64,000 nucleotides of DNA from Baekduia soli (GTDB lineage: Bacteria; Actinomycetota; Thermoleophilia; Solirubrobacterales; Solirubrobacteraceae). Under the pieces are notes generated by a model, which was not told where the DNA came from, ran no database searches, and saw only the letters and a program-made list of their open reading frames with translations. Of the stretch, positions 12,961 to 21,472 are shown one piece after another. Location of the stretch: contig NZ_CP042430.1 in the NCBI RefSeq assembly GCF_007970665.1, positions 4,588,001-4,652,000 on the forward strand, given 5' to 3'. Both the position numbers and the translations under genes were made by a program. Position 1 is the first letter of the stretch, and each line of letters opens with the position of its first letter.

Positions 12961-13683
12961 ATGCGCACCGTCCGAGCTGAGCCACCGGTCGAGACCGGCA
13001 CCACCGACGGCCTGGCCTGGGCCCGGTTCGCCCCCGCCGGCGCCGGGGACGCACCGCCGGCCGCCGGCGTCGTGGTCCTGCACGGCGCCGACAGCACGAA
13101 GGAGAACCACGCCGACTTCGCCCGCGTCTGCGCCGCGCACGGCCTGGCCGCGCTCGTCTTCGACGCGCGGGGCCACGGCGCCAGCGGCGGCACGCTGGAC
13201 GGCCGCGCGATCGACGACGTCGCGCGCATGGCCGACACGCTGCGCGAGCGCGCGGGGGTGCAGGCCGTCGGGCTGCGCGGCTCGTCCATGGGCGCCTACC
13301 TCGCGCTCGTCGCGGCCGGGGCGGCGCGGGCGGGCGCCGTCGTGGCGATCTGCCCCGCGCCGGCGCTGGGCCTGGCCGTCGGGCTGCGCGCCGGGCGCTT
13401 CGCGTTCGGGGTCGACCGCGAGGGCCTCACCGCGCTGCTGGAGGCCCACAACGAGACCGACGCGGCCCGCGCGCTGGATGTCCCGCTGCTGCTCCTGCAC
13501 GCCGAGGGCGACGAGGCGGTGCCGGTCGAGCTCTCGCGCGCGCTGCACGCGGCCGTGCCGGCCTCGCGCCTGGTGGTCGTCCCCGGCGGCCACCACCGCT
13601 CGATCCAGCACGACCCCGAGCTGCAGGGCGAGGCCGCGCGCTTCCTGGCCGGCCACCTGAGTGCCCGGCCCGGCGCGGGCTAG
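12961..13683 (+). CDS. Alpha/beta hydrolase of unknown substrate
   Basis: This 240-residue serine hydrolase has the nucleophile elbow GSSMG with Ser109. The oxyanion region is VVLHGADS near 40, an acid candidate is the Asp in HAEGDEAVP, and the histidine lies in PGGHHRSI. Length and motifs resemble dienelactone-hydrolase-like or prolyl-oligopeptidase-like single-domain hydrolases. It starts only 23 bases from the divergent lysA start. Its TAG stop codon is part of the GCTAGC target in which an IS481 element inserted; the protein itself appears complete. Confidence 0.8.
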   Translation: MRTVRAEPPVETGTTDGLAWARFAPAGAGDAPPAAGVVVLHGADSTKENHADFARVCAAHGLAALVFDARGHGASGGTLDGRAIDDVARMADTLRERAGVQAVGLRGSSMGAYLALVAAGAARAGAVVAICPAPALGLAVGLRAGRFAFGVDREGLTALLEAHNETDAARALDVPLLLLHAEGDEAVPVELSRALHAAVPASRLVVVPGGHHRSIQHDPELQGEAARFLAGHLSARPGAG

Positions 13684-13684
13684 C
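13679..13684. repeat. Target-site duplication of IS481 copy 1, left side
   Basis: GCTAGC here and at 14763-14768 flank the element directly. The TAG within it is the stop codon of the upstream hydrolase gene. The NCTAGN six-base pattern is that known for Bordetella IS481. Confidence 0.85.
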
Positions 13685-14648
13685 TGTTCTGCCTCAGGTC
13701 GTTCCGAACGCGGGTGATGGGCGGCCGGTTGCCGAGCGAGCTGTGGTTCCGCTCGTTGTTGTAGTGGTGCAGCCAGTGTGGCAGCGCTGCGGCTCTGGCG
13801 TCGCTTGAGCGGTAGCGCTGTCCCAGGCCCCATTCGCGTTTGAGGGTCTGCTGGTAGCGCTCGACCTTGCCGTTGTGGCGCGGCGTGCGGGGCGCGATCG
13901 TGCGATGCCGGATGCCGTGGCTGTCAAACAGGGCGGCCAGCGCCTTGTTGTGGGTGTAGGTCCAGGCGTTGTCGGTCTGCCAGCGCTCGATGATGATGCC
14001 GTGCGCAGCGAAGAACGCGATCGCCCGCTCGGTGAAGCCGATGACGGTGGCGGCCTTCTCGTCGCGGTGCAGCTCGGTGTAGGCCAGGCGGCTGTGGTCG
14101 TCGATCGCGCTGTGGGCGAACTCGTAGCCGACACGCTGGCGCTTCTCGGCGCCCGTGCGGTGACGGTTGCCGGTGACGGCATGGCCGGGTGAGGAGAACC
14201 GCGCGAAACGCTTGACGTCGTTTTGGATCAACGCCCCAGGGCACGGCCACTCAAAGCGCTGCACCGCCTCTCGGGGCGCCGGCGGCTGGCGCGACATGCC
14301 GCGCCGCTTCAGACAGCGCGAGACCGTCGCGTGCGCGATGCCGAGCTCGGAGGCGATCAGGCGCGGCCCCCAGCCCGTCCGCGTCCGCGCCTGGCAGACA
14401 CGGTCGTGCAGCTCGTCGCTGGACCGCGTCGGCTGGCGATGCGGCGTCGAGGGTCGATCCTGCGCCCACGCGCCCGACGCTCGCTCGGCGTCTGAGGCGT
14501 TGCGGTACCGGTCGATCCAGTACTGCACCGTCGACACGCTCACCCGCCGACGGGCCGCTGCCTGGCGTCGAGGAAGTCCCTCGCCAAGACACCAATCAAC
14601 CAGCTCGACACGCTGCCAGCTGGGCAGCCACCTACGCTTGCACTGCAT
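13680..14648 (-). CDS. IS481-family transposase (copy 1)
   Basis: The 322-residue DDE transposase has N-terminal helix-turn-helix regions (VSVSTVQYWIDRY and IASELGIAHATVSRCL) and a C-terminal rve integrase core. The acidic triad is seen as Asp in QNDVKRF, Asp in QTDNAWTY and Glu in HNGKVERY. The last codons cross the IS end at 13685; the final Ser and the TAG stop come from the GCTAGC target, not from the element. The start codon ATG at 14648 lies inside an inverted repeat. It is identical in sequence to copy 2 except for the target-derived last residue. Confidence 0.95.
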   Translation of the reverse strand: MQCKRRWLPSWQRVELVDWCLGEGLPRRQAAARRRVSVSTVQYWIDRYRNASDAERASGAWAQDRPSTPHRQPTRSSDELHDRVCQARTRTGWGPRLIASELGIAHATVSRCLKRRGMSRQPPAPREAVQRFEWPCPGALIQNDVKRFARFSSPGHAVTGNRHRTGAEKRQRVGYEFAHSAIDDHSRLAYTELHRDEKAATVIGFTERAIAFFAAHGIIIERWQTDNAWTYTHNKALAALFDSHGIRHRTIAPRTPRHNGKVERYQQTLKREWGLGQRYRSSDARAAALPHWLHHYNNERNHSSLGNRPPITRVRNDLRQNS

Positions 14649-17094: not shown

Positions 17095-17667
17095 ATGGGC
17101 TTCCTCGACGCGCTGCTGGGCAAGCGCAAGCTGAAGGGGCCGGCGCCCGACCGGCTCTTTGCGATCACCACCGCGGCGGTCGCGCTGGAGGCCGGGCCGG
17201 CCATCGTGACCCGCGGGTCGGCGGCCATCGTCTTCCAGCCCCTGGCCACGGGCGACTTCCGCCAGATCGCCACCGACATGGAGGAGGTCGTGCGCGGCAC
17301 CGGCGAGGAGACCGGGACGACGCTGACGACGACCGACGACACCTACGGCTACCGCTGGATGGTGCTGCACGACTCCGACGTCGAGGACCTCGCGGTCGGC
17401 GTCAACGCGGTCTCCGACGCGCTCGCGGTGGGCGGCTACGCCGACCGCGTGCTCTGCGCGGTCTTCGCGTTCGAGCAGTCCGACGGTCGCGCCGTGTACT
17501 TCATCTACAACTACAAGCGCGGCACGTGGTACCCGTTCGTGCCCGCGGCCGGCGCGCAGCAGCGCGACAACGAGCGTGAGCTCCAGGTCAAGGCCCAGGT
17601 CGGCTCCGAGCTGCCCGTCGAGCCCGAGCTCGAGCGCTGGTTCCCCCTCTGGGGCATCCCCATCTAG
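17095..17667 (+). CDS. pspAB: PspA-associated protein PspAB
   Basis: The 190-residue cytoplasmic protein begins MGFLDALLGKRKLKGPAPDRLF and ends LERWFPLWGIPI, the hallmarks of the PspAB family linked to PspA envelope stress systems in actinobacteria and archaea. Its biochemical role is not established. It follows htpX closely, and PspA and PspAA are encoded 4 kb away on the other strand. Its stop codon shares the bases CTAG (17664-17667) with the stop of the convergent phosphatase gene. Confidence 0.85.
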   Translation: MGFLDALLGKRKLKGPAPDRLFAITTAAVALEAGPAIVTRGSAAIVFQPLATGDFRQIATDMEEVVRGTGEETGTTLTTTDDTYGYRWMVLHDSDVEDLAVGVNAVSDALAVGGYADRVLCAVFAFEQSDGRAVYFIYNYKRGTWYPFVPAAGAQQRDNERELQVKAQVGSELPVEPELERWFPLWGIPI

Positions 17668-19322
17668 GCGAACGCCGGCCCCGGAGGCCCGGTTCGCCCG
17701 CTGCGCCGCACGGCCAGCAGCGCGACGTCGTCGGGCCAGCCCGGGTCGGGCGCCAGCGCCGCCAGCACGCGGTCGCACAGCGCGTCCAGGCCCGGCGGCG
17801 CGGAGGACACCACGGAGCGCAGCGCCTCCAGCCCCGTGTCGATCCCCTCGCCGCGGCGCTCGATCAGCCCGTCGGTGTACAGCAGCAGGCGCCCGTCCTC
17901 GGGCAGCCGGGCGTGCTGCTCGCCGCGTCCCGAGACGCCCGTACCCAGCGGCGGGGCGACCTCGCCGTACAGGAGGTGCGCGCCGGCCGCGTCGGCCAGC
18001 ACGGCGGGCGGATGGCCTGCGCTGGCGATGGCCAGGGCCCCCTCGCCATCGACGATGACCAGCGTCGCGGTCGCCATGGCGTCCATGGCGGTCACGAAGC
18101 GGTCCAGGCGGTCCAGGACGCTGCCCGGCGCACCGTCCTCCAGCGCGTAGGCGTGCAGCGCGGCGCGGACCTGGCCCATCGCCGCCGCGGCCGCCAGGCC
18201 CTTGCCGGCCATGTCCCCGATCGCCAGGCCCAGGCGGCCGCCGGGCAGCGCGACGGCGTCGTAGAAGTCGCCGCCGACCTGGCCGCCCTCGGCGCCCCGC
18301 GGCAGGTAGCGGGCGCACAGCGACAGGCCCGGCGCCTGCGGCAGGGCCTGGGGCAGCAGGCTGCGCTGCAGCGTCTCCGCGATCCGCTGCTCGCGCTCGC
18401 GCAGCTGCGCGTGGCCGATGGCCAGCGCGGCCCGCGCCCCGACGGCCTCGAGCAGGCGCAGGTCCTGCGGGCCGAAGTGGCCGACCTCCGTCGTGCTGAC
18501 GTGCAGCACACCGATGACCTCGCCCTCCAGGCGCAGCGGCACGCCGGCCAGCGACCCGCGGAAGCGGCGGTGCTCGGCGGCCAGGCCCTCGGCCGCCGCG
18601 ATGTCGTCGAAGACCATGCCGCGCCCGGCGGCGGCGATCGACCCCGACACCCCGGTCCCGAAGGGGGTGACCTCCCCGAGGATGTCCATGTCGAGCGCCG
18701 CCCGGACCCGGAGCGTTCGCCGCGGCTCGTCCACGAGCAGCACCGCCGCCCGCTGCGCGCCCAGCGCGTCGCGCGCCAGGACGAGCAGCCGGTCCAGCGC
18801 GATGTCGAGGCTCTGGCTCGTGAAGCCGGCCAGGACGACGGCCTCCAGGCGGCGCAGCCGGCGCTCGGCCTCCAGCGCGCCGGCCTGCGCGCGGTCGACC
18901 TCGCGCTGGCGGCGGCCCAGCGCGCGCTGGCTGTCGATGAGGTCGTCGTTGAGGCGCAGGACCTGCTCGATGAGCTCGTCACGCTGGACGCTGTCGGGCT
19001 CGGCCACGAGCACGACGGCATCGCCGTCGCGGCGCACGTGCACCGCGCGGTCCTCCGCGGCGCCGGGACCGCCGAACCAGCAGCCCACGGTCAGCGTGCT
19101 CCAGGCCGGGCCGGCGGCCGCGAGGTGCGCCGCCAGCGCGGGGCGCTGGGGCTCGGCGGCCAGGACCGTGGCCGGCTCGCCGATCAGGTCACGGCCCGCC
19201 GCGAGGCGCAGGGCGTCGTTGGCGTCCTCGATCGCGCCGGAGGCGCCCACCCGCGCCGCATACAGCGTGCGGCTGGTCCGGAGCAGGTCGGCGAGCGCCT
19301 GCTGTTCGTCGGCGTGGAGCAC
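17664..19322 (-). CDS. GAF-domain SpoIIE/RsbU-type protein phosphatase
   Basis: This PP2C-type phosphatase should dephosphorylate an anti-sigma antagonist. Residues 1-110 look like a PAS-like sensor. A short coiled coil follows (RLNDDLIDSQRALG), then a GAF domain at about 165-315 and a SpoIIE domain at about 335-540. Metal-binding motifs are GGDFYDAV, IGDMAGKGLAA and a terminal DDVALLAVR. The length is 552. It starts 12 bases after the stop of the cobalamin-binding gene and should be in the same transcript. The GAF domain could add a second input (small molecule or redox). Confidence 0.88.
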   Translation of the reverse strand: MLHADEQQALADLLRTSRTLYAARVGASGAIEDANDALRLAAGRDLIGEPATVLAAEPQRPALAAHLAAAGPAWSTLTVGCWFGGPGAAEDRAVHVRRDGDAVVLVAEPDSVQRDELIEQVLRLNDDLIDSQRALGRRQREVDRAQAGALEAERRLRRLEAVVLAGFTSQSLDIALDRLLVLARDALGAQRAAVLLVDEPRRTLRVRAALDMDILGEVTPFGTGVSGSIAAAGRGMVFDDIAAAEGLAAEHRRFRGSLAGVPLRLEGEVIGVLHVSTTEVGHFGPQDLRLLEAVGARAALAIGHAQLREREQRIAETLQRSLLPQALPQAPGLSLCARYLPRGAEGGQVGGDFYDAVALPGGRLGLAIGDMAGKGLAAAAAMGQVRAALHAYALEDGAPGSVLDRLDRFVTAMDAMATATLVIVDGEGALAIASAGHPPAVLADAAGAHLLYGEVAPPLGTGVSGRGEQHARLPEDGRLLLYTDGLIERRGEGIDTGLEALRSVVSSAPPGLDALCDRVLAALAPDPGWPDDVALLAVRRSGRTGPPGPAFA

Positions 19323-19334
19323 GACGGGCGGGTC

Positions 19335-20027
19335 CTACGGCGCGGACGGTCCGTCGAGGGCCAGGGCGAGCTCGGCCAGCAGGAGCGACGGATCGGCGGC
19401 GTAGATGTCGGCGCCGGCCACGAGCGCCCGCGCGCGATCGCCGTCGTAGGCGCGGCCGCCGGCCGCGATCAGCGGCGGCGGCTGCAGCCGGCGCAGCGCG
19501 GCGAACACGCGCCCGGCGGCCAGCACGTTGGCCGCCAGCGCGGTCGACAGGGCGACGACGTCGGGGCGCCGGCGGGCGGCGAGGTCGACGATGTCGGCGC
19601 CCGGGGCGTCCGGGCCGACGAAGAGGACCTCCCAGCCCGCGGCCTCCAGGAAGTCGGCGACCATCCGCGCGCCGATGGCGTGCAGCTCCCCCGGGGTCCC
19701 GGCGACGACCGCGGTCCGGCCGGGCAGGGCGGTGGGGTCCTCCTCGAGCTCGGGCGCCAGCCGGGCCAGGACGGTCTGGGTGATCTGCGTGGCCAGGTGC
19801 TCCTGGGCGACGCCGATGCGGGCCGTCTCCCACAGCCGCCCGACCTCGACCATGGCCGGGGCGAGCACGTCGAGGTAGAGCGCGCGGGGGTCGGCGCCGG
19901 CGGCCAGGGCGTCCCGGATCGTGGCCCACGCGCGCGGGCCGTCCGGTGCCAGGATCGCCGCGAGGTAGGCGTCGAGGACCGGGCCGAGCGCATCGCCGGC
20001 GGCCTGCTCGGCCCGCGGGACGCTCAC
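19335..20027 (-). CDS. Stand-alone CarH/LitR-type cobalamin-binding protein
   Basis: The 230-residue protein has a four-helix cap domain (residues 1-100) and a Rossmann-like B12-binding domain (103-225). Trp66 and Glu76-His77 form an exact W-x9-EH motif. His116 in GELHAIG stands where the lower axial His of CarH stands (GQRHEIG type), and EVLFVGPDAP follows as in CarH. These features are known from adenosylcobalamin photoreceptors. A MerR DNA-binding domain is absent. The GTG at 20027 overlaps the stop of the ATPase gene (GTGA). I infer it is a light or cobalamin sensor acting through protein contacts on the coupled ATPase or the SpoIIE phosphatase. A corrinoid protein of a methyltransferase is less likely, as no such enzyme is nearby. 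Confidence 0.8.
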   Translation of the reverse strand: MSVPRAEQAAGDALGPVLDAYLAAILAPDGPRAWATIRDALAAGADPRALYLDVLAPAMVEVGRLWETARIGVAQEHLATQITQTVLARLAPELEEDPTALPGRTAVVAGTPGELHAIGARMVADFLEAAGWEVLFVGPDAPGADIVDLAARRRPDVVALSTALAANVLAAGRVFAALRRLQPPPLIAAGGRAYDGDRARALVAGADIYAADPSLLLAELALALDGPSAP

Positions 20028-20407
20028 CGCGCCTCGTCCGGGTCGCCGAGCTCGAACCAGACGTGCGTGCTGCCCTCCCGCACGCCCCAGCGCCGAGACA
20101 GGGCCTCGACGAGGTGCAGGCCCCATCCGCCCGGCTCTGTCGCCGGCCGGGTGCGGGCGGTCGGCACGAAGCCGTCGCCCTCGTCGACGATCTCGCAGCG
20201 CAGCGTGCCGTCGCCGGCCGAGGCGTCCAGGAGCACGCGCACGGCCGGGCCGCGGCCGTGGCGCACGGCGTTGGTCACCAGCTCGGAGAGCAGCAGGCGC
20301 GCCTGGTGGGCGACGGGCTCGGGGACGTGCGGGACAAGCGCGTCCACGAGATGGCGGGCCTGCGCCGGGGCGCGCGGATCGCGTGGGATGTCGAGAGCAC
20401 GGACCAT
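20024..20407 (-). CDS. RsbW/SpoIIAB-like ATP-binding protein (anti-sigma kinase family)
   Basis: The 127-residue HATPase_c protein has the N-box SELVTNAVRHG, the G1 box DEGDGF and the glycine-rich GGWGLHLVE. This is the size and layout of serine kinases that bind a sigma factor and phosphorylate a STAS antagonist. It is the first gene of a three-gene unit with the cobalamin-binding protein and the SpoIIE phosphatase. No sigma factor is adjacent; the closest are at 36.5, 37.4 and 48.5 kb. Confidence 0.88.
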   Translation of the reverse strand: MVRALDIPRDPRAPAQARHLVDALVPHVPEPVAHQARLLLSELVTNAVRHGRGPAVRVLLDASAGDGTLRCEIVDEGDGFVPTARTRPATEPGGWGLHLVEALSRRWGVREGSTHVWFELGDPDEAR

Positions 20408-20668
20408 GATCGTCAGCGGCGCAGCCTCCGGAAACGGTACCCGGCGGCCCGAAGAGCATGCCCGCGATCAGCGGCCCCGCGCCAGGAGGACCCTGGCACA
20501 GGGACGGTTCAATACCATCTGCGGATCGTCGGCATCCGACAGTCCGGGCCTCCCCCGGACCCCCGTGTCCGGGCGCAGACACACCGACCAGACCCGGTCG
20601 CCCTGCGACGCTCCGTCGCGTCGGCCCTGGCCTCAGGCCGTCCCGCCCACGAGGTCTACGCGGCGCTC

Positions 20669-21472
20669 GTGCGGCCCGTCGTCGCGTCCCACGGCCCCCA
20701 GGATGCGCCCGACGCCGTGGCGTCCTCCGCCGTCCGGGCGGCGCTCGCCGACGTCGCGGTCGCGCTGCCGGCCTCCGAGGGGGGCCTCGGCCGCTGCGCG
20801 GCTGTGCTGGCCCCCGCCGACCCGTCCGGCGCGCTCGACGCCCGGATGCTGGCCGACGTCCTGGACGCCGACGGCTGGACCGTCGAGCTCATCGACCTGT
20901 GCGAGGACCCGGCCGCCGTCGTGGAGGCCGTGACCGCCACCGCCGCCGAGGTCGTCGCCGTGCCCGCCGCCGACGCCGCGCAGGCCCTCGCCGCCCGGGC
21001 CGCGTGCTCGGCGCTGCGCGGGCTCGGGCGCCCGCCGCTCGTCGTCGGCGTCACCTTCGCCGCGGGCCGAGACCCCGTCGCACTGGCCACCGACCACCTC
21101 CTCGAGGACGCCGGTGCGCTCCCGGGCCTGCTGGACCGCCGCGTCCCCGCCGCCGACGGCGGGGGCGGCGCCGTCCGCTGGGGCGTGCGGCTCGCACGCG
21201 AGGCCGGCGGGTTGACCGTCGTCCCGGGCGGTGTCCTCGACGCGGCCTCGGCGCTGCGGCTGCGCGAGGTCGTCGAGAGCCGCCGCGCGCTGTATCCACG
21301 CATCGTCATCGACCTGCGCGAGCTGCTGGTCACCGACGAGCCGGGGCTCGAGGCCCTGGCGACGTGGAACGCCGAGCTCCCCTGGGCGCCCACGGTCAGC
21401 GCGCGGGCCGACGGGCCGTCCCTGGACGCGGTGCGCGCCGCAGGGCTGCTGGGCCGGCTGCCCGTCGTCTGA
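20669..21472 (+). CDS. Degenerate cobalamin-fold plus STAS domain protein (start uncertain)
   Basis: The product joins a helical cap and Rossmann-like region, similar in layout to the B12 protein on the other strand, to a C-terminal STAS domain (GGLTVVPGGVLDAASALRLR onward). The cobalamin ligands are missing: there is no W-x9-EH motif and no axial His where RCAAVLAPADPSG occurs. In the STAS domain the usual DSSG with its phosphorylated Ser is TDEPG, so classical phosphorylation is doubtful. Coding character and family similarity extend upstream to about 20590, but no ATG, GTG or TTG is in frame between 20402 and 20669. The GTG at 20669 is thus a minimal start; a CTG at 20519 is another candidate. 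Confidence 0.65.
   Translation: MRPVVASHGPQDAPDAVASSAVRAALADVAVALPASEGGLGRCAAVLAPADPSGALDARMLADVLDADGWTVELIDLCEDPAAVVEAVTATAAEVVAVPAADAAQALAARAACSALRGLGRPPLVVGVTFAAGRDPVALATDHLLEDAGALPGLLDRRVPAADGGGGAVRWGVRLAREAGGLTVVPGGVLDAASALRLREVVESRRALYPRIVIDLRELLVTDEPGLEALATWNAELPWAPTVSARADGPSLDAVRAAGLLGRLPVV

Follow-up and report, generated by a model that had tools for sequence, protein, structure and literature searches.

A stand-alone cobalamin-binding protein with a photoreceptor signature is linked to partner-switching genes in Baekduia soli

The closest solved relatives of the cobalamin (B12)-binding protein described here are the photocobilins SasPcob (8J2W/8J2X) and AbPcob (8J2Y), whose B12 domains carry the same residue signature and which, in other actinobacteria, lie in SpoIIE–photocobilin–STAS operons. 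CarH/LitR and CtMerR share with it a four-helix plus Rossmann B12 domain, the W-x9-EH motif, an axial histidine and a GxxxP element, and PpaA/AerR resemble it in being stand-alone B12 proteins that have no DNA-binding domain and would act through protein contacts. On the output side, the likeness is to RsbT–RsbU, RsbQ–RsbP and Rv1364c, in which a PPM phosphatase with an N-terminal module and coiled linker is combined with an RsbW-like ATPase and a STAS protein. To our knowledge, and drawing in part on PMC10979010, the target of each well-characterized B12 photoreceptor is DNA, a DNA-binding regulator or a fused enzyme. The protein of interest is encoded in a 64,000-nucleotide stretch (hereafter the window; contig NZ_CP042430.1, positions 4,588,001–4,652,000) of the single-contig, 5.2 Mb genome of Baekduia soli (G000), among genes of the partner-switching type. 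Its genomic context strongly supports the coupling of a B12 photoreceptor to a partner-switching phosphatase, and provides genomic evidence for stand-alone B12 photoreceptors connected to the serine phosphatases of such systems.

Three genes follow one another on the minus strand in the order ATPase, B12 protein and phosphatase. The first (20024–20407) encodes a 127-residue RsbW/SpoIIAB-like HATPase (Pfam HATPase_c_2, 1.7e-15) and shares a 4-base GTGA overlap with the 230-residue B12 protein gene (19335–20027), whose stop codon is separated by 12 bases from the start of the gene for a 552-residue GAF-SpoIIE PPM phosphatase (17664–19322; SpoIIE 8e-37, GAF 2e-16). On the plus strand, a gene that faces away from the ATPase gene and ends at 21472 (20594–21472) encodes a fusion of a degenerate B12-binding domain and a degenerate STAS domain. 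A first-pass annotation, made from the letters and their open reading frames, had described the overlap, the spacing and both enzyme types in these terms, and the coordinates and Pfam matches agree with it. Unlike RsbT–RsbU, RsbQ–RsbP and Rv1364c, the sensor here would be a B12 protein and the local STAS protein is the degenerate B12–STAS fusion.

The residues to which that annotation drew attention in the B12 protein (W66, E76, H77 and H116, with the stretches ELHAIG and LFVGPDAP) are all exact on translation, and its statement that no DNA-binding domain is present is matched by Pfam, which gives B12-binding_2 (3e-17) and B12-binding (1e-18) and nothing of the DNA-binding kind. Experiments have identified the elements GxxW, EH, GxxH and GxxxP as the signature of cobalamin domains that respond to light (SignatureFinder; PMC11796333), and all four are present (G63xxW66, E76H77, G113xxH116 and G138xxxP142). 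An alignment of 24 diverse homologues contains 11 invariant columns, seven of which are signature residues (G63, W66, E76, H77, H116, G138 and P142); the others are G119, G131, G190 and G191. Because the signature columns are invariant across such diverse proteins, the motif is not a chance occurrence. The AlphaFold2 model of the protein (predicted local distance difference test score, pLDDT, 92.7) superposes on SasPcob (8j2w) at 1.7 Å over 208 residues (Z 27.7, 33% identity) and on CarH, the comparison originally proposed, at 2.4 Å (Z 21.0). Non-light B12 carriers also reach Z 24 against this model, so the fold alone is no proof of photoreception; as judged from sequence, it is the signature, rather than the fold, that discriminates light-responsive from other B12 domains.

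This distinction bears on whether the protein might instead carry a corrinoid for the use of a methyltransferase or another enzyme, its linkage to partner-switching genes being incidental. The domain pair is indeed that of MttC, MtmC and MetH, and the TIGR02370 corrinoid model matches at 62 bits, but this lies far below the cut-off of 215 bits, MttC has neither the W nor the EH motif in the alignment and no methyltransferase gene was recognized near the SpoIIE-linked B12 copies. We have rejected the carrier role on these grounds and consider it highly improbable; service to a corrinoid methyltransferase was among the circumstances that the first-pass annotation had itself named as fatal to its proposal.

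A profile search of PDB sequences places SasPcob, CtMerR and AbPcob at the top (1e-30 to 7e-27), with the corrinoid protein MttC (6e-19) and CarH (2e-15) at lower ranks. The earlier assignment to the CarH type therefore holds in part: a CarH-like light-responsive cobalamin domain is supported by the predicted features, but its closest relatives are the photocobilins and CtMerR, not CarH. Membership of the CarH family was rejected, as the protein does not have the MerR DNA-binding domain of CarH/LitR and CtMerR and scores 77 bits with the NCBIfam CarH model, for which the cut-off is 400. It also differs from CarH at the bis-His light-state residue, E67 occupying the position of TtCarH H132; the equivalent histidine is likewise absent from the light-responsive CtMerR, SasPcob and AbDPcob. 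Relative to the photocobilins, the protein has no bilin-binding globin domain, ending after the Rossmann domain at 230 residues, it falls on another branch of the tree and it is accompanied by an RsbW-like ATPase and the pseudo-B12/STAS fusion. AerR is a weak sequence match (1e-9) and acts on CrtJ/PpsR, whereas the neighbors here are partner-switching proteins.

It is conceivable that the B12 protein senses AdoCbl (adenosylcobalamin) supply or redox state, not light, and that the holo or apo form controls the phosphatase. The oligomeric state of CarH-type proteins depends on AdoCbl binding itself, and the AerR/AppA-like relatives, to which a weak AppA_SCHIC match in the Pfam scan of window proteins and a fold match to AerR (7te2) point, are co-regulators. 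We nevertheless regard a sensor of cofactor status as unlikely, given that the adenosyl-contacting light signature is complete and invariant and that the nearest characterized relatives are photoreceptors. The genome contains a PduO-type adenosyltransferase gene, and AdoCbl can therefore probably be made.

The set of four genes (ATPase, B12 protein, SpoIIE phosphatase and divergent STAS fusion) recurs across two genera. It is found in full synteny with the window in one genome (G006) and in the same order, with unrelated flanks, in a member of the other genus (G383); the 4-base ATPase/B12 overlap is common to all three loci. In G005 the set lies rearranged in another place, with B12–SpoIIE followed by the ATPase on the minus strand and the STAS fusion on the plus strand, and in G002 the SpoIIE orthologue lies at a contig end in window synteny. 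STAS–B12–SpoIIE arrangements occur in G004, where the STAS protein is canonical (FIDSSG) and an ATPase lies nearby, and in a third genus (G435), and a fourth genus (G438) has the B12–SpoIIE pair only, such that these pairs span four genera of the family. The co-occurrence within Thermoleophilia that the first-pass annotation had suggested looking for thus extends beyond this genome (G006, G005 and G383), and the link it drew between a B12 sensor and partner-switching genes proves both conserved and recurrent.

Among 396 genomes drawn from the phylum, eight that lie outside the class have a SpoIIE gene beside that of a longer, photocobilin-type B12 protein, mostly with an adjoining STAS gene. 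The SpoIIE and STAS domains were confirmed by Pfam in sampled cases, and the one B12 protein of this group that was compared matches SasPcob over its full length, including the globin domain (5e-97). Supported forks (96/86) in a maximum-likelihood tree separate the SpoIIE-linked photocobilins from the clade of the window B12 protein. Because the two lineages lie on separate supported branches, B12 photoreceptors probably became linked to such phosphatases on at least two occasions within Actinomycetota. A network and neighborhood analysis had pointed to STAS, SpoIIE and PP2C-like proteins as possible partners of SasPcob (PMC10979010); that suggestion is now an observed gene arrangement and is extended to globin-free receptors. 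What is new here is the stand-alone receptor, the dedicated N-terminal module described below and the pseudo-B12/STAS fusion, the link between B12 photoreceptor, STAS and SpoIIE having been hinted at in the same study.

The window phosphatase has intact PPM metal motifs (GGDFYD, GDMAGKG, TDG and DDVALL), and its best PDB match is Rv1364c (3ke6, 1.9e-23). Residues 1–165 (18828–19322, minus strand) gave no confident Pfam domain, with weak PAS matches in relatives only; this N-terminal module may be PAS-like and includes a coiled segment (LNDDLIxxQR). With a profile of the module built from B12-linked proteins, a search that took no account of gene neighbors and covered 249 genomes of the class gave just four matches (E ≤ 1e-6), in four of the genomes. 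They are two phosphatases and two histidine kinases, each with a B12 gene no more than about 2 kb away. The gene of a third module-bearing kinase (L072) comes immediately after a B12 gene and overlaps it by 4 bases. This pattern is what one would expect of a dedicated receiver, and it agrees with the proposal, made in PMC12143880, that PPM phosphatases, histidine kinases and diguanylate cyclases exchange N-terminal modules linked by coiled coils. The module may bind the B12 protein physically. Where the first-pass annotation had the sensor controlling either kinase or phosphatase action, the link stands and can be narrowed: of the possible effectors the SpoIIE phosphatase shows the tightest linkage, with contact presumably made through its N-terminal module.

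The divergent protein has no Pfam match above threshold, but its profile matches the window B12 gene at 6e-24, and its predicted structure (pLDDT 80.7) resolves into two parts. The first ~190 residues (20594 to ~21160) form a degenerate B12 domain, residues 1–184 superposing on SasPcob at 3.6 Å over 176 residues (Z 16.0), and the last ~100 (~21170–21472) have a STAS fold, residues 194–292 matching the anti-sigma antagonist RsfB at 2.3 Å over 98 residues (Z 12.9). The protein previously described simply as a divergent STAS protein does therefore have a STAS fold, at its C-terminus, with a degenerate B12 domain fused in front. W, EH and the axial, cobalt-ligating His have been lost in the aligned orthologues. 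In the maximum-likelihood tree the five orthologues group in a single clade, which is set off by a long branch. By its sequence, the fusion is not a plain antagonist; we propose a role as a decoy or heteromeric partner. No in-frame ATG, GTG or TTG was found for it between 20408 and 20669, the region where its orthologues start, and an alternative start or a sequence error is possible.

Alongside the domain contents, the full signature, the conserved and recurrent linkage and the adenosyltransferase gene, all of which are read from sequence or prediction, we infer a light response, a direction of switching, a set of physical contacts and binding partners and a target sigma factor. The reading that we favor, and hold to be reasonably probable, is a light-gated partner-switching module in which the B12 photoreceptor acts on the PPM phosphatase via the N-terminal module. 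In the dark, AdoCbl would be bound base-off/His-on through H116, with W66 and E76–H77 enclosing the adenosyl group, and the protein would assemble in CarH-like fashion into a dimer or larger oligomer. Cleavage of the Co–C bond by green light would change the oligomer, and the coiled-coil module at the N-terminus of the neighboring phosphatase would sense the difference; PMC12143880 describes both a coiled-coil linker mechanism and the exchange of N-terminal modules between PPM phosphatases, kinases and GGDEF proteins. PPM dimerization and activity would thereby be altered. A STAS antagonist, kept phosphorylated by RsbW-like ATPases of which the module's own is one, would change its phosphorylation state as a result, and a SigB/F/G-type sigma factor encoded elsewhere would then be released or captured. 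The pseudo-B12/STAS protein would probably be blind to light and act as a partner or decoy for the ATPase, the photoreceptor or both.

Several observations weigh against a single module of this kind. One genome (G003) keeps the HATPase and STAS-fusion genes in their usual synteny without the B12 and SpoIIE genes, and because the halves separate there and, conversely, in G438, the four proteins need not share one pathway; members recognized in the class are also few, at about seven loci. The position of the phosphorylated serine in the divergent STAS domain, which we take from SpoIIAA-type antagonists, is occupied by E in the window (DEPG, not DSSG), T in G006, P in G005, S in G383 and D in G003, and the domain is therefore not an ordinary phospho-switch. 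NCBIfam RsbA and SpoIIAB scores fall far below their cut-offs, and none of the genome's four SigB/F/G-type sigma factors lies in the module, a further difference from RsbT–RsbU, RsbQ–RsbP and Rv1364c. The separable halves could mean that the functional unit is B12–SpoIIE only, with the ATPase and the pseudo-B12/STAS protein a separately acting neighboring pair, as would also fit G005, in which the ATPase lies outside the B12–SpoIIE operon and faces it. We think such a separate pair rather improbable in view of the ATPase/B12 overlap in the window, G006 and G383, the co-occurrence across two genera with different flanks and the homology between the B12 domain and the N-terminal part of the fusion.

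In a more speculative scheme, to which we give little weight, the fusion is a light-blind heteromeric partner: its dead B12 domain would bind the photoreceptor in darkness, and photolysis would release the STAS domain for capture of the ATPase, alongside an exchangeable B12-plus-coiled-coil cassette. If so, the partner switch would be driven by the breakage of a photoreceptor/pseudo-receptor complex and not by dephosphorylation alone, and the input cassette would serve both phosphatases and histidine kinases.

Turning to the output of the light-gated module, the ATPase has the N, G1 and G2 boxes of an RsbW-like GHKL ATPase (N box SELVTNA, with DEGDGF and GGWGL) and may have kinase activity. 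The genome contains 17 STAS matches, at least six with a DSSG-, DSTG-, DSAG-like or related site, eight strong HATPase_c_2 matches and the four SigB/F/G-type factors, which score over the curated cut-off. Two of the sigma genes lie ~10 kb from an ATPase–STAS cluster (G000:C1, about 4565.7–4577.3 kb; L266, upstream of the window), some 30–40 kb from the module, and this region is a candidate downstream target. A shared sigma-type promoter was sought in the divergent ATPase/STAS intergenic region of five orthologues and rejected, no 10-mer being common to three or more; a rough sigma-B-like pattern matched one of the five. The arrangement as a whole suggests that light controls this partner switch. 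Should this be correct, a stress-type sigma response of soil actinobacteria would lie downstream of green light, with vitamin B12 as the intermediary, and the exchangeable input modules shared by PPM phosphatases and histidine kinases, RsbT/RsbU-N and RsbQ/RsbP-N among them, would gain another member.

B12 domains of this family also occur in other architectures. A paralogous protein with the photoreceptor residues is encoded in the same genome directly upstream of the urease gamma/beta and alpha genes (L032 5802–6611; G000:C1:2353.8–2354.6 kb), and L029 5772–6593 is a further example; its extra N-terminus of ~50 residues is ribbon-helix-helix-like, which Pfam did not confirm. Elsewhere in Thermoleophilia (L033, L037, L076 and L079), same-family B12 domains are fused to or adjoin GGDEF diguanylate cyclases. 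In Acidimicrobiia-type genomes (L113–L120, L159 and L167), an excisionase-like helix-turn-helix, with a weak HTH_17 match, precedes the same B12 domain and constitutes a non-MerR DNA-binding variant. Within the window itself, an integrase-core (rve) transposase lies at 13680–14648, and a 99.6% identical copy is found at L270 11829–12692 (G000:C1, about 1175.8–1176.7 kb).

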